The notes beneath the pieces are model-generated. The model was not told the origin of the DNA. It searched no databases and saw only the letters and a list, made by a program, of their open reading frames with translations. A DNA stretch of 64,000 nt from Mycoplasmatota bacterium. Lineage in GTDB: Bacteria > Bacillota_I > Bacilli_A > RF39 > UBA660. This document shows positions 28,229 through 33,750 of this stretch, piece after piece. Both the position numbers and the translations under genes were made by a program. Position 1 is the first letter of the stretch. Each line of letters begins with the position of its first letter. The stretch covers positions 124,001 to 188,000 of the forward strand of contig JALFCF010000006.1 in the NCBI GenBank assembly GCA_022771205.1, given 5' to 3'.

Positions 28229-29146
28229 TTACATTAAAATTCTCTTCACTAAACCACGGGCTTTATCCCTATTAGCATAAAAATTATTACTCGGTGAAAA
28301 AAACATCTGATCCAAAGTGTTAGACAATTCATCAAATGTTCCTTGGGAAGACTTCCTATCTACTTCTTCTCTAATAAAAGAAACTTCACCATTTAATCTT
28401 CCTTGTTTAAATACATGATGTAACCTATCATCTTCATATATTGGAAGAATGATTGGAACAAAATCTGGATAACCTTTAGGACGCATTGGAAATTTTACTG
28501 CATAAGATACATTTTCTAGTGCTGATGATATCACTGGATCATAAATTTTAAATCTACTAAAATTTATAATTTCTTTCACAATTTCATTAGTCTGTAAAAC
28601 ATTAATAGATTCTTCAATTATACAATTCTTTTTATTTCCATTCAAACCAAGAAGATATAATCCAGTTCTCAAATAATTTTTTCCATTCATTTCTAAAAAA
28701 GCATTCTTAACAGAATTAACTATATGATTTACTTCATGACAAGTTATTACCAATGTGTCTAATGATAACGGATGATCGGACGTACTAACAAACAAATCAT
28801 ACATTCTTTTATAATTACCATTAGAATCAACCAGTACTTGTGGTGTAACAAAAGCTTTAGCAACTTTTTTGATAGCTTCCAAATCCTTATTTGAAACATC
28901 ATGATAATTTTTCTCTATAATTTCTTCTACTGATAAATTAGAAATATGAAAATTCATCAATTTAAAAGCTTCATAAATAACAGTAACATTATCAAGTCCA
29001 TAATAAGAAAGCATACCAGCAAATATTAAATATTGTTTGCTTTTTTCCTTTAAACCATAATGCACTCCTTTTTCTCTTTCTACTTGATCAACTAATATTT
29101 TACTATAATCCAACACTTGATTAACCATTTCTTCACTTTGAAACAT
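28229..29146 (-). CDS. Uncharacterised HExxH-motif (zincin-like) protein
   Basis: 305 residues, no signal peptide. LVITCHEVNHIVNSVKNAF (about 155-175) contains H-E-x-x-H, the zinc-binding core of zincin metallopeptidases. A conserved-looking Glu follows about 35 residues later in KNCIIEESINVLQTNEIV and could be the third ligand. The rest is helical. I do not recognise the family. It sits between rpsU and yqeY, an unusual place in an otherwise conserved block, with a GGGGAG ribosome-binding site. A second HExxH protein of unrelated sequence is at 47494. Confidence 0.75.
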   Translation of the reverse strand: MFQSEEMVNQVLDYSKILVDQVEREKGVHYGLKEKSKQYLIFAGMLSYYGLDNVTVIYEAFKLMNFHISNLSVEEIIEKNYHDVSNKDLEAIKKVAKAFVTPQVLVDSNGNYKRMYDLFVSTSDHPLSLDTLVITCHEVNHIVNSVKNAFLEMNGKNYLRTGLYLLGLNGNKKNCIIEESINVLQTNEIVKEIINFSRFKIYDPVISSALENVSYAVKFPMRPKGYPDFVPIILPIYEDDRLHHVFKQGRLNGEVSFIREEVDRKSSQGTFDELSNTLDQMFFSPSNNFYANRDKARGLVKRILM

Positions 29147-29569: not shown

Positions 29570-29740
29570 TTACTTTAATGGGCACAAATTATCCTCACTT
29601 ACTCTTCTAATAGAACTTCCAAGACTCCTACCAGCATCCATTAATAATTTAATAATATTAGTAAAAGCATTGATTACAGTACCAGAAATACTATCTCCTC
29701 CAACAACAAAATCTAATTCACAGTTATCAACTTTTTTCAT
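29570..29740 (-). CDS. Double-glycine leader peptide B (bacteriocin or signal precursor)
   Basis: A 56-codon frame, starting MKKVDNCELDFVVGG, which is a 15-residue leader with the E-L-D-x-V-x-G-G pattern cleaved by C39 peptidases. The predicted 41-residue core is DSISGTVINAF then an amphipathic stretch NIIKLLMDAGRSLG, with a basic RR and a single Cys near the end (NLCPLK). Its ATG overlaps the TGA of peptide A (ATGA), with no strong ribosome-binding site of its own, so coupled translation at a fixed ratio is likely. It lies just downstream of a C39-type exporter. Assignment as a bacteriocin is inferred; a pheromone is possible. Confidence 0.82.
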   Translation of the reverse strand: MKKVDNCELDFVVGGDSISGTVINAFTNIIKLLMDAGRSLGSSIRRVSEDNLCPLK

Positions 29741-29877
29741 TTATGACAAGGGTTAGGGCTAGTAATACCATCAAAAACTCCAGCAAGAAAAACTACTACT
29801 GCCGCAATTCCTACTATAACCCACCCAGATACACCTCCTCTCACTTTATCCAATTCCAAATAATTAACACTTTGCAT
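29737..29877 (-). CDS. Double-glycine leader peptide A (bacteriocin or signal precursor)
   Basis: A 46-codon frame directly following the accessory gene (TGA then ATG, no gap), with GGGGAGGAG as ribosome-binding site. It starts MQSVNYLELDKVRGG, a textbook double-glycine leader of 15 residues. The 31-residue core starts VSGWVIVGIAAVVVFLAGVF, strongly hydrophobic with a small-residue pattern, and ends in S-P-N-P-C-H-K with one Cys. The leader matches that of peptide B in length and key positions, so both are likely substrates of the same exporter. A hydrophobic peptide paired with an amphipathic one is the usual makeup of two-peptide class II bacteriocins. Confidence 0.85.
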   Translation of the reverse strand: MQSVNYLELDKVRGGVSGWVIVGIAAVVVFLAGVFDGITSPNPCHK

Positions 29878-30273
29878 TCAATCTCCTCCCCACATATCAA
29901 AAAAAACAGACAAAAAAGACACTTTCTCATGTAACAAACCAATAGAAATAGAACTATTGATAGAATATCCTTTAGTAGAAATTGATAAAAACACTTGATA
30001 TTTCTTTTTATCAATAATGAGTTTACGATCCACAGAAAATTTGACTTTTTTACCATTAATCAAAAGAATCTGATTATGATAAAGCCATTTTAATTGCTCA
30101 TTAGACACAAACACCATTACTTGATTTCTAGATGACACTAATCCTGTTATCATTTGATATTTTCGGATATTAGAAGTAGAAAAACTATAAATAAATATTC
30201 CAACAAACAAAAAAGCAAAAAGAAAGAATAAAATCCAAATAGAACAAAAAGATTCATAACTTTTAGAATTCAT
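29878..30273 (-). CDS. Short accessory membrane protein of peptide exporter
   Basis: 131 residues: a short cytosolic start, one membrane segment at about 10-32 (IWILFFLFAFLFVGIFIYSF) and about 95 outside residues of beta character (QVMVFVSNEQLKWLYHNQ, KVKFSVDRKLIIDKKKYQVF). Its place, overlapping the exporter gene end by 11 bases and preceding the peptides, is that of an HlyD-like accessory protein. It is far shorter than the usual 400-500 residues and lacks the coiled-coil hairpin. It could be a minimal adaptor or an immunity protein. Confidence 0.7.
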   Translation of the reverse strand: MNSKSYESFCSIWILFFLFAFLFVGIFIYSFSTSNIRKYQMITGLVSSRNQVMVFVSNEQLKWLYHNQILLINGKKVKFSVDRKLIIDKKKYQVFLSISTKGYSINSSISIGLLHEKVSFLSVFFDMWGGD

Positions 30274-32335
30274 TGAGCAATCCTTTCTCTAAACGATATT
30301 TCTTATCATACAATTCCAAATGTTGTAGTCTGTGGCTAATAACTATTATAGTTTTCCCATCTAAATAAGAAAAAATATTTTTGAGAATAATTTTTTCCTG
30401 TTCCATATCAATCTGATGAAAGGCTTCATCAAAAATATAAATATCACTATTTTTAATCAAGGCTCTAGCAAGTAATATTTTTTGTCTCTCACCACTACTA
30501 AAATTAAACCCATTCTCCTCAACTATACTATGATACCCCAAAGGAAGTTTTTCAATTAAATCATCTAATAATATTAATCTACAAATCTCCTTAACTTTTT
30601 CTTTATCCACATCTCGATTTAAAATTATATTATATAAGAGAGTATTAGAAAACAGCAATTCTTCTCCAGTAACATAGGATATTCTTTGACGTAAAACATC
30701 TAAATGTATATGATTAATGTCAAAATCACCAATTTTTACCATACCATATGGTACATCTAAATACCTCATAAGTATTTTAACCAAACTGCTTTTTCCGCTA
30801 CCAGACTTACCAGTCAAAAGAACTTTCTGTCCAGAATATATAACAAAAGAAAAATCTGAAAACAAATTTCTGCTAGAATAAGAAAAAGAAAGATGTGAAA
30901 ATACAATATTACCAGATAATTGCATAAATTGATAATAACTACCACCATCAAAGTTTTCTCTAGATAAAGAAAATAAATCTTGAACTCTAGAAATCAATAG
31001 AGGTATCTGATAGCTCTCAAATAAAAAAGAAAAAAATTCATCACAATATTTTGTTAAATAATTAAAAATATACTGACAAACAAAGAACTCCCCAATAGTT
31101 AAATGATTATAAATTAACATATATGAACCAATAATATAAAAAGTAATTAAGATAACATAAAATAGAATTTGTTTAACATGATTTTCTAATAATAAGACTT
31201 TTTCTAAATTATAATTTTTAACTAAAAAGTTATCATACTCATTATGAAACTGCTCTAAAAATAAATATTCCAAATGTAGCCCTTTTACAGTATCAACATT
31301 CTGAAAAGTTTCCACTAATAAAGACTGAATAAAATCCCATTTAGATAAAATCTTTTTTTGACGTTTCTTTTTTATTTTAAATAAAGAAAAACTAAAACAT
31401 AAAGAAAGAAAAATATAACAAAAGAGTAAAACTACAAACAACCAATGGACTTTAAAAAGTAGCCATAAAAATACAACGAAAAAGAAAAATTTAATAATAA
31501 ATGAAGAAAATAATCGTAAAATAAAATTTTTGACTTTTATAACATCTTGTAAACGTTCTAGTACTTCTCCTAAAGTTCTATTCTTAAAAAATAAATACGG
31601 AAGTAGAAGAATTTGCTTATAAACATAAAAAATTAATTCTTTATCAAAAATTAAACTAATTTTAGTCAAAAGAAAGTTTTTTAAATAATTAAAGCATAAT
31701 AAATTTAAGTAAAATAAAGAAAGAAAAAAACTAAATTTCAATGCAAATGAAAAAACTGAATAAGTAATTGCATAATCAAATAAATATTGAAAATGAAAAG
31801 CGATAATTAATTCACACCATAAACAAATAATTGAACTAACTAAAACTAGAAAAAAGTATAATTTATAACATTTACAAAAATGTCTAATAAATAAAGACAA
31901 GGTCTTCTTTTCATAAAAAACAGGTAACGTTTTTATTGGAGTTAAATATAGAAAATAACCACTAGACAACATAATAAATTCAGAAAAAGGCAAAATCACT
32001 TTTCCTTTAGCAGGATCCATCAATACAATTTCTCTTTTATTTACATCCAATTCATATATTACAACAAAATGCTGATACTTTTTCTGATAAATGATATGTG
32101 CAATACACGGAAGTCGAGAATGATCTAAAAAAGAGATTTCTCCTTTTACACCTTCACAAGAAAAACCCAAAAAAGTGGCGGCTTCTAATAATTGATAAAA
32201 AGAAACTCCTGTTTTAGTAGTGCCTGTTAACTCACGTAAATATTCTTTCGATACATCTCCCCCGTAATATCGAATGATAGAAAGTAAACAACAAACACCA
32301 CAATCTTTATTACCATCTTGTAATGCTACCTTCAA
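30263..32335 (-). CDS. C39-peptidase ABC exporter for double-glycine peptides
   Basis: The start is placed at TTG 32335, which gives MKVALQDGNKDCGVCCLLSI, the normal C39 N-terminus; an upstream ATG at 32398 would add 21 atypical residues. Peptidase: Cys in D-C-G-V-C-C, His in YQHFVVIYEL, Asp in LMDPAKG. About six membrane helices follow (about 145-400). The ATPase has Walker A LLTGKSGSGKSSLV, signature FSSGERQKILLARAL, Walker B IYIFDEAFHQID and switch VISHRLQHL. It should cleave at GG and export peptides A and B encoded downstream in the same operon. All three peptidase residues are kept. Confidence 0.92.
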   Translation of the reverse strand: MKVALQDGNKDCGVCCLLSIIRYYGGDVSKEYLRELTGTTKTGVSFYQLLEAATFLGFSCEGVKGEISFLDHSRLPCIAHIIYQKKYQHFVVIYELDVNKREIVLMDPAKGKVILPFSEFIMLSSGYFLYLTPIKTLPVFYEKKTLSLFIRHFCKCYKLYFFLVLVSSIICLWCELIIAFHFQYLFDYAITYSVFSFALKFSFFLSLFYLNLLCFNYLKNFLLTKISLIFDKELIFYVYKQILLLPYLFFKNRTLGEVLERLQDVIKVKNFILRLFSSFIIKFFFFVVFLWLLFKVHWLFVVLLFCYIFLSLCFSFSLFKIKKKRQKKILSKWDFIQSLLVETFQNVDTVKGLHLEYLFLEQFHNEYDNFLVKNYNLEKVLLLENHVKQILFYVILITFYIIGSYMLIYNHLTIGEFFVCQYIFNYLTKYCDEFFSFLFESYQIPLLISRVQDLFSLSRENFDGGSYYQFMQLSGNIVFSHLSFSYSSRNLFSDFSFVIYSGQKVLLTGKSGSGKSSLVKILMRYLDVPYGMVKIGDFDINHIHLDVLRQRISYVTGEELLFSNTLLYNIILNRDVDKEKVKEICRLILLDDLIEKLPLGYHSIVEENGFNFSSGERQKILLARALIKNSDIYIFDEAFHQIDMEQEKIILKNIFSYLDGKTIIVISHRLQHLELYDKKYRLEKGLLNEF

Positions 32336-32437
32336 TAATTCTTCCACCTCCACTTTTATTATTAGAGAACTAGCAGACATTCTTGGTAAAATTGACAAAA
32401 AAATAAATTTTTTTTATACTGAAAGAAAGGATGACCA

Positions 32438-33007
32438 ATGATGAAAGAAGAAAAAAAACAAATTACAGAAGAAGAATATCAAGAAATACTAAGGCGTCTA
32501 AATGAAATAGAAGCAATAAAAGAAAGCTTAAAATTAGCAGTAAAAGTTCAAAAATATAAAGCACATTTTCCACTTGCAGGGAATTTTGAAGAATTACTAA
32601 TTAATTTAACTAGAAATAATCACGAGATTGATGCAAAACTCAATTTAGTAATTAAACAATTCTTAAATAGCATAACTGCCAACAAAGAAATAAAAAAGGA
32701 AATTGGTATGATTATTACTACCCAACGAGAAATGTTAGAAGCAAAAAAGGAAGTACAAGTTACTGAAATGCCAGCCGAATTTGCATCTATCACTGCTCAT
32801 TATCCAGGTTTTCAACAACTATATACAACAATACAAGATGAAATAAACAAAAAACACGCAAATAACTACCTAATAGAAAAAGTAGAAATTTTACAAAGTC
32901 AATTTGATACACTACTAGGCAAAAAAATACAATATGAAAAACAAAATAAAGGAAAAACTACACAAAAAAGAAAAATATTTTCCTTTATCAAGCAAAAAAA
33001 AGAATGA
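32438..33007 (+). CDS. Hypothetical coiled-coil protein
   Basis: 189 residues, Lys/Glu/Gln-rich, predicted mostly helical with likely coiled coil (ITEEEYQEILRRLNEIEAIK, EINKKHANNYLIEKVEILQS) and a basic tail. It has a GAAAGGATG ribosome-binding site and overlaps the HD-domain gene downstream by four bases (ATGA). Divergent from the exporter operon, sharing a 102-base intergenic gap. No family recognised. A link to the peptide cassette is possible only by position. Confidence 0.7.
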   Translation: MMKEEKKQITEEEYQEILRRLNEIEAIKESLKLAVKVQKYKAHFPLAGNFEELLINLTRNNHEIDAKLNLVIKQFLNSITANKEIKKEIGMIITTQREMLEAKKEVQVTEMPAEFASITAHYPGFQQLYTTIQDEINKKHANNYLIEKVEILQSQFDTLLGKKIQYEKQNKGKTTQKRKIFSFIKQKKE

Positions 33008-33750
33008 AAGGATTGAATAAATTGAAAATTAAAAGTGAAAATCAACAACTGTTAAACAACATATTAAATAAATTTAAATTAAGTGAAGAGGAAAAAAAAG
33101 AATTTTTAGAAATTGCTATTCCCATTGTGAAACACGAAGAATTTCAAAAAAGAATGAATTCAGATATCTTTCCTCATCATGCAAAAGTAAGTCTTGGAGA
33201 GCATATACTTAGTGATGCTATTCTAACCTATAAATTAGCAAAAAAAAAGAAATGGAAAAAAGAAAATCGAGAAAGAGCCATAAGAATAGCCTTATTTCAT
33301 GATTTATACGAACTTCCTTGGCAAAATAACGACTATAAGAAAAATTTTTTTAATAAACATGGTTTCACCCACCCAATAGAAGCTGCAATCAATGCAGCTA
33401 CATGGTACCCAGAATTATTTAAAGAAGAAGTAGAAAGAGAAATTATATTAGATGGAATTATTCATCACATGTTTCCTTTCCCCGTACGTGCTTTAAATGA
33501 AAAAGATGCTGAGCTACATAATCAAGAAAAATTCGAAAAATTACCAACACATATAAAGAAAAATATTATAAACTCTAGTAAAAGAAAAAGAATAAAAGCA
33601 GTAGCCTTTTCTAGAAGCAGATATAAAGAAGGAAGAATAGTAAGTAAAGCCGATAAAAAAGTTGCAATTGGAAAAGAATTAAAATCTTTCCATGCACTAT
33701 TAGCCTGTATTACTGGACATAATTCAAAATTACAAAAAAAAGACAAATAA
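33004..33750 (+). CDS. HD-domain hydrolase
   Basis: 248 residues. HD superfamily pattern: SLGEHILSDAILTYKLA (first His), ALFHDLYELPW (the H-D pair), GFTHPIEAAINAATW, DGIIHHMFPFPVRALNEKD and a late Asp in SKADKKVAIGK. Such proteins are metal-dependent phosphohydrolases; the substrate is not readable. It is co-transcribed with the coiled-coil gene upstream and ends at a bidirectional terminator. Confidence 0.85.
   Translation: MKGLNKLKIKSENQQLLNNILNKFKLSEEEKKEFLEIAIPIVKHEEFQKRMNSDIFPHHAKVSLGEHILSDAILTYKLAKKKKWKKENRERAIRIALFHDLYELPWQNNDYKKNFFNKHGFTHPIEAAINAATWYPELFKEEVEREIILDGIIHHMFPFPVRALNEKDAELHNQEKFEKLPTHIKKNIINSSKRKRIKAVAFSRSRYKEGRIVSKADKKVAIGKELKSFHALLACITGHNSKLQKKDK

Follow-up and report, generated by a model that had tools for sequence, protein, structure and literature searches.

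Double-glycine peptide pairs normally act as strain-level weapons or signals. In the window (the whole 64,000-nucleotide stretch analysed here), four genes packed on the minus strand at 29570–32335 encode such a pair together with an exporter, and the preliminary description had proposed a two-peptide bacteriocin or a signalling system. Could either role account for a peptide pair that almost an entire bacterial lineage carries?

Architecture of the operon and its peptides

The open reading frames follow the order exporter, accessory, pepA and pepB, and the four-gene cassette stands as first noted. The exporter (30263–32335, minus strand; 690 residues) starts at a TTG codon behind the Shine-Dalgarno sequence GGAGGTG and belongs to the PCAT type of C39-peptidase ABC exporters. 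It has C39 (PF03412), ABC_membrane (PF00664) and ABC_tran (PF00005) domains, all above the Pfam cut-offs, and the nucleotide-binding domain has the Walker and signature motifs. The TIGR01193 profile matched at 9e-91, yet under its family cut-off. The closest solved structure is PCAT1 (4ry2, E 2.8e-81), and the alignment with it placed the catalytic Cys in QDGNKDCG, the His in QHFVVIY and the Asp in LMDPAKG, so the three residues are indeed intact as had been claimed.

The accessory gene (29878–30273, minus strand; 131 residues) was characterised with the NF045999 profile and an AF2 model (pLDDT 91.7), in which an N-terminal transmembrane helix (residues 8–33) precedes an extracytoplasmic beta-barrel-like domain. 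A Foldseek search with this model, in which a membrane-fusion-protein fold was considered, gave nothing at E<0.001, only weak MFP/HAS-barrel-like matches. The 3' end of the gene contains the Shine-Dalgarno sequence of pepA, and the conserved W-K-G-G C-terminal end of the protein coincides with that site; conservation of the accessory end may therefore act at the DNA level.

The pepA precursor (29737–29877, minus strand; 46 residues) consists of a leader (29833–29877) and a core (29740–29832), MQSVNYLELDKVRGG / VSGWVIVGIAAVVVFLAGVFDGITSPNPCHK, and the pepB precursor (29570–29740, minus strand; 56 residues) likewise of a leader (29696–29740) and a core (29573–29695), MKKVDNCELDFVVGG / DSISGTVINAFTNIIKLLMDAGRSLGSSIRRVSEDNLCPLK. 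The two genes overlap by 4 nucleotides at an ATGA junction. Both leaders are 15 residues long and end in GG. The reading as a double-glycine system of two peptides served by a dedicated C39 exporter holds. The leader pattern occurs in the genome at the pepA and pepB sites and in three further matches, which are probably due to chance.

The predicted mature peptides have 31 (A) and 41 (B) residues. The pepA core is a hydrophobic helix with GxxxG and PxxC, and the pepB core an amphipathic basic helix with GxxxG, RR and a C-terminal Cys, modelled by AF2 as a long helix with low confidence. The single cysteine ascribed to each peptide applies to the mature parts, since the pepB leader carries a second one. 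Across 40 genera, A cores have 30–35 residues and are transmembrane-like (GRAVY 1.07), and B cores have 36–42 residues with a mean net charge of +3.2 and an amphipathic moment of 0.74. GxxxG is found in 40/40 pepB and 38/40 pepA sequences, and the C-terminal Cys in all. The distance from the last GxxxG glycine to this Cys is exactly 12 in B (40/40) and 7 in A (38/38). Such fixed spacing argues for a defined A–B (or A–A/B–B) geometry with a disulphide, and suggests that A and B might form a helix pair, perhaps disulphide-linked. The single-Cys peptides could instead form homodimers, or their cysteines could remain reduced under anaerobic conditions.

Some genomes have extra pepB-like or tandem GG-leader matches beside the pair, such as a second B-like frame at one locus (L121) and a third GG frame at another (L117). 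These are either local duplications or pepA picked up by the pepB profile.

Profile searches of Pfam, NCBIfam and PHROGs assigned neither core to a curated family above cut-off, in line with the earlier remark that neither core was recognised as a described bacteriocin. An ordinary class IIb bacteriocin against other bacteria, with immunity provided by the accessory or by a gene elsewhere, could nevertheless be envisaged: two adjacent, differing double-glycine precursors share a dedicated C39 exporter, both mature peptides have a GxxxG(-like) motif, and a hydrophobic peptide accompanies a cationic one. The weak match of pepA members to Bacteriocin_IIc (PF10439; best E 8.7e-5) would point the same way, but its best score of 22.9 bits lies under the cut-off of 27.1, and the match is largely leader-driven. 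The LcnG-beta and cerein 7B profiles stayed under cut-off for the peptides scored.

Conservation and chromosomal setting

Within the genus, 15 of 16 genomes have a strong exporter match, the sixteenth (G001) showing generic ABC matches only, and pepA and pepB follow the exporter in all 15. We then sampled 288 genomes from 102 genera of one GTDB family, using a pepB profile built from 40 genera. PepB was found in 270/288 genomes and 97/102 genera, and C39 in 275/288 genomes. The presence of both peptides beside the exporter in all 15 genus members and the pepB count in the wider sample indicate that the cassette is more than a chance arrangement. PepB never occurred without a C39 peptidase (13/13 C39-less genomes also lacked pepB); five genomes had a C39 match and no pepB, one of these matches being weak (G040). 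Because the genes are adjacent, part of this co-absence reflects contig loss. Loss of the short frames from relatives that keep the exporter had been named as a refuting outcome, and the frames proved to be conserved.

In a class-wide sample searched with an earlier profile (A3), pepB occurred in 51/54 genomes of the family, and elsewhere only leader-type partial matches appeared. The named contigs that matched, in a scan using a narrower alignment than the family-wide one, were metagenome-assembled genomes labelled uncultured Bacilli, Tenericutes, Mollicutes or Bacillales, plus two labelled Clostridia. The sampled group, made up of small, AT-rich, sporulating Bacilli, probably belongs to the GTDB order RF39 (PMC10868615).

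We read 54 loci in detail, 14 from the genus and 40 from other genera. PepB with an adjacent pepA lies downstream of the exporter in 54/54, which bears out both the exporter-first gene order and the conservation of leader–core pairs near C39 exporters. A script picked up the accessory in most of these loci, and each genome has one locus. Downstream of the pair, usually immediately, most genera have rpsU and yqeY (yqfC, yqfD), and upstream of the operon many have spoIIIAH, a gerE-like gene and gerM. The names gerM (Germane) and yqfD come from Pfam matches; the other upstream neighbours we take to be spoIIIAH and gerE-like from reading their sequences.

Two variable elements flank the operon in the window. 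Between rpsU and yqeY, a 305-residue frame (28229–29146) with the HExxH-like motif CHEVNHIV has counterparts of 25–34% identity in some relatives and is absent in others, as variable cargo. Upstream, a divergent two-gene insertion (32438–33750), which encodes a 189-residue protein of unknown family and an HD-domain protein, occurs in part of the genus.

Codon analysis across the genus gave mean pairwise identities of 0.85 for the B core, 0.82 for the A core, 0.63 and 0.57 for the leaders, 0.66 for the exporter and 0.42 for the accessory. The dN values were 0.127 for the A core and 0.093 for the B core, 0.31/0.26 for their leaders, 0.26 for the exporter and 0.55 for the accessory, with 0.098, 0.11 and 0.069 for the housekeeping genes yqeY, ybeY and era. 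Thus, the cores evolve at the pace of housekeeping genes and slower than their leaders, the exporter and the accessory; with dS near 1, the low core dN indicates strong purifying selection. Bacteriocins usually follow the opposite pattern, the core being less conserved than its own exporter.

Searches for the peptides on plasmids, on phages and in viral contigs were all negative, and a mobile-element origin was rejected. The bacteriocin label of the preliminary description is therefore not upheld: the distribution is vertical and near-universal rather than patchy, the cores are the most conserved parts, mobile-element relatives were not found, and the operon has no conserved immunity gene, as rpsU–yqeY usually follows and the operon has no additional gene beyond the accessory, itself similar to a mycoplasma exporter partner. 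On these grounds, with one locus per genome, we consider a class IIb bacteriocin aimed at other bacteria unlikely.

The same extreme core conservation, the absence of an immunity gene and the sporulation-gene neighbours would suit structural or protective envelope peptides of the producer, surface- or spore-related, in parallel with MAM of Faecalibacterium, which has a GG leader and lies near sporulation genes and, in some strains, near a PCAT (PMC8836110). Two paired GxxxG helices look membrane-active, however, and MAM is a larger, single protein; we regard such an envelope role as quite unlikely.

Upstream of the exporter, an element at 32357–32386 (minus strand) corresponds in position to the sigma-H-like promoter of relatives, whose consensus is weak in the window, with a degenerate −35 (CAAGAAT) and the −10 CTAATAAT. 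GGA(A/T/C) lies 29–38 nucleotides before the exporter Shine-Dalgarno sequence in 29/44 loci, compared with no more than one locus in any other upstream bin that was listed. The pattern AGGA-N17/18-nAAT occurs in 10/44 loci against a shuffle mean of 0.9 and a maximum of 5, rows from one genus not being independent. Controls before rpsU, yqeY, gerM, yqfD and spoIIIAH gave 0–1 occurrences each of a related pattern with a slightly different spacing range. The published SigH motif is AGGA-17/18-GAAT (PMC12456013). The nearest relatives of the window likewise have a degenerate −35, and their −10 is nAAT, rarely GAAT; a scan of the window for AGGAWWW-N11/12-RNNGAAT gave two matches, at chance level and neither at the operon.

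A sigma-H-like element lies upstream of the exporter in many genera, and because the −35 of the window is degenerate, sigma-H control would apply at the level of the lineage. The genome carries Spo0A, SpoIVA and a SigH-like gene in an mrnC-rlmB-sigH context (58 bits, far under the family cut-off of 294.8). Co-loss gave no sign that the pair depends on sporulation: of the 15 metagenome-assembled genomes that lack Spo0A, 2 also lack pepB, where about 1 would be expected.

The signalling half of the preliminary proposal has a low probability, and the operon has no receptor gene. The sigma-H-like promoter recalls that of the B. subtilis phr genes, and pheromones are secreted by C39 exporters such as ComA, which the exporter matches; a pair of pheromones signalling cell density or development would be compatible with both. 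An operon without a kinase or regulator argues against it, two long helical membrane-type peptides with a fixed GxxxG/Cys geometry would be atypical, and pheromones usually diverge between species. We regard a pheromone pair, too, as quite unlikely.

A candidate function for the secreted pair

The explanation we favour, at about an even chance of being right, is a core, vertically inherited, transition-phase, self-directed, membrane-active two-peptide secretion operon. Sigma-H would turn the operon on at the transition between growth and sporulation, and the coupled genes would yield A and B in matched amounts. The exporter would cleave both precursors after GG and export the hydrophobic A and the amphipathic basic B. 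Outside the cell, A and B might pair via their GxxxG faces into one membrane-active heterodimer, with a disulphide that probably joins their C-terminal cysteines and holds it together. The pair might target mainly the producer's own kind, by lysing siblings during the transition or by reshaping the producer's own envelope, and would not chiefly be an optional weapon against rivals. On the best reading, the system is structurally like a class IIb pair and evolutionarily like a housekeeping trait; being kept almost unchanged by nearly all members, it is probably part of the basic biology of the group.

A near-unchanged pair in about 100 genera of abundant uncultured gut bacteria with genomes of about 1.3 Mb implies that its secreted function is essential or nearly so. 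The pair could also serve as a marker and, made synthetically, as a test in a lineage that is hard to approach by experiment, and the operon suggests where an unexplained mycoplasma exporter came from. More tentatively, and with somewhat less than an even chance, this might be the first double-glycine two-peptide system that is obligate, under developmental control and present throughout a lineage. It would be a heterodimer joined by a disulphide and core to the life cycle of an uncultured order of Bacilli, and its exporter would persist in mycoplasmas as the orphan Mbov_0121/MAG1140 pair.

Comparison with known systems

The exporter is homologous to PCAT1 and ComA over its full length and shares the catalytic triad, and the PCAT1 substrate leader (7s5j) resembles the leaders here in a weak match; unlike those systems, the operon adds an accessory partner and two-peptide substrates.

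The Mycoplasma pair Mbov_0121 and MAG1140 (NF045998/NF045999) similarly consists of a peptidase-ABC exporter followed by a short accessory with one transmembrane helix. Mbov_0121 is about 25% identical to the exporter, and the accessories are linked by profile only, at 21.4 bits (E 2.1e-4, residues 12–125) with the cut-off of 35 bits not reached. Full-length NF045999 matches at the equivalent chromosomal position of several genera, together with this below-cut-off match, support the accessory as a distant MAG1140 homologue. Both systems lie upstream of ybeY-cdd-era: the window has the order exporter-accessory-A-B-rpsU...yqfD...ybeY-dgkA-cdd-era, whereas exporter-MAG1140-ybeY-cdd-era, in which ybeY follows the accessory without intervening peptide genes, was found in 7/7 genomes with a MAG1140 homologue that we read (L156–L162). 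Since the sites correspond, the simplest reading is that the orphan mycoplasma pair is probably a relict of the operon after losing the peptides and rpsU–yqfD. Leader-only matches in frames of 70–140 residues occur in three mycoplasma-like genomes (G303, G455 and G460), which could be GG-exported substrates.

MAM of Faecalibacterium prausnitzii is likewise a GG-leader product of a gut commensal. Its gene lies close to sporulation genes in every genome examined, and some strains also have a PCAT nearby (PMC8836110), but it varies within the species. Class IIb systems (lactococcin G, plantaricins, CibAB/CabAB) share the paired GG precursors, the C39 exporter and GxxxG, and differ in their profile-unrelated cores, while the pair described here has an invariant C-terminal Cys in each peptide and no immunity gene. 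Induction of pneumococcal CibAB and S. mitis CabAB occurs under an alternative sigma factor, that of competence; all S. pneumoniae have CibAB, and cibABC occurs in only 26.9% of S. mitis (PMC13059744). CibAB is conserved within one species, whereas the peptide pair described here is conserved across about 100 genera.
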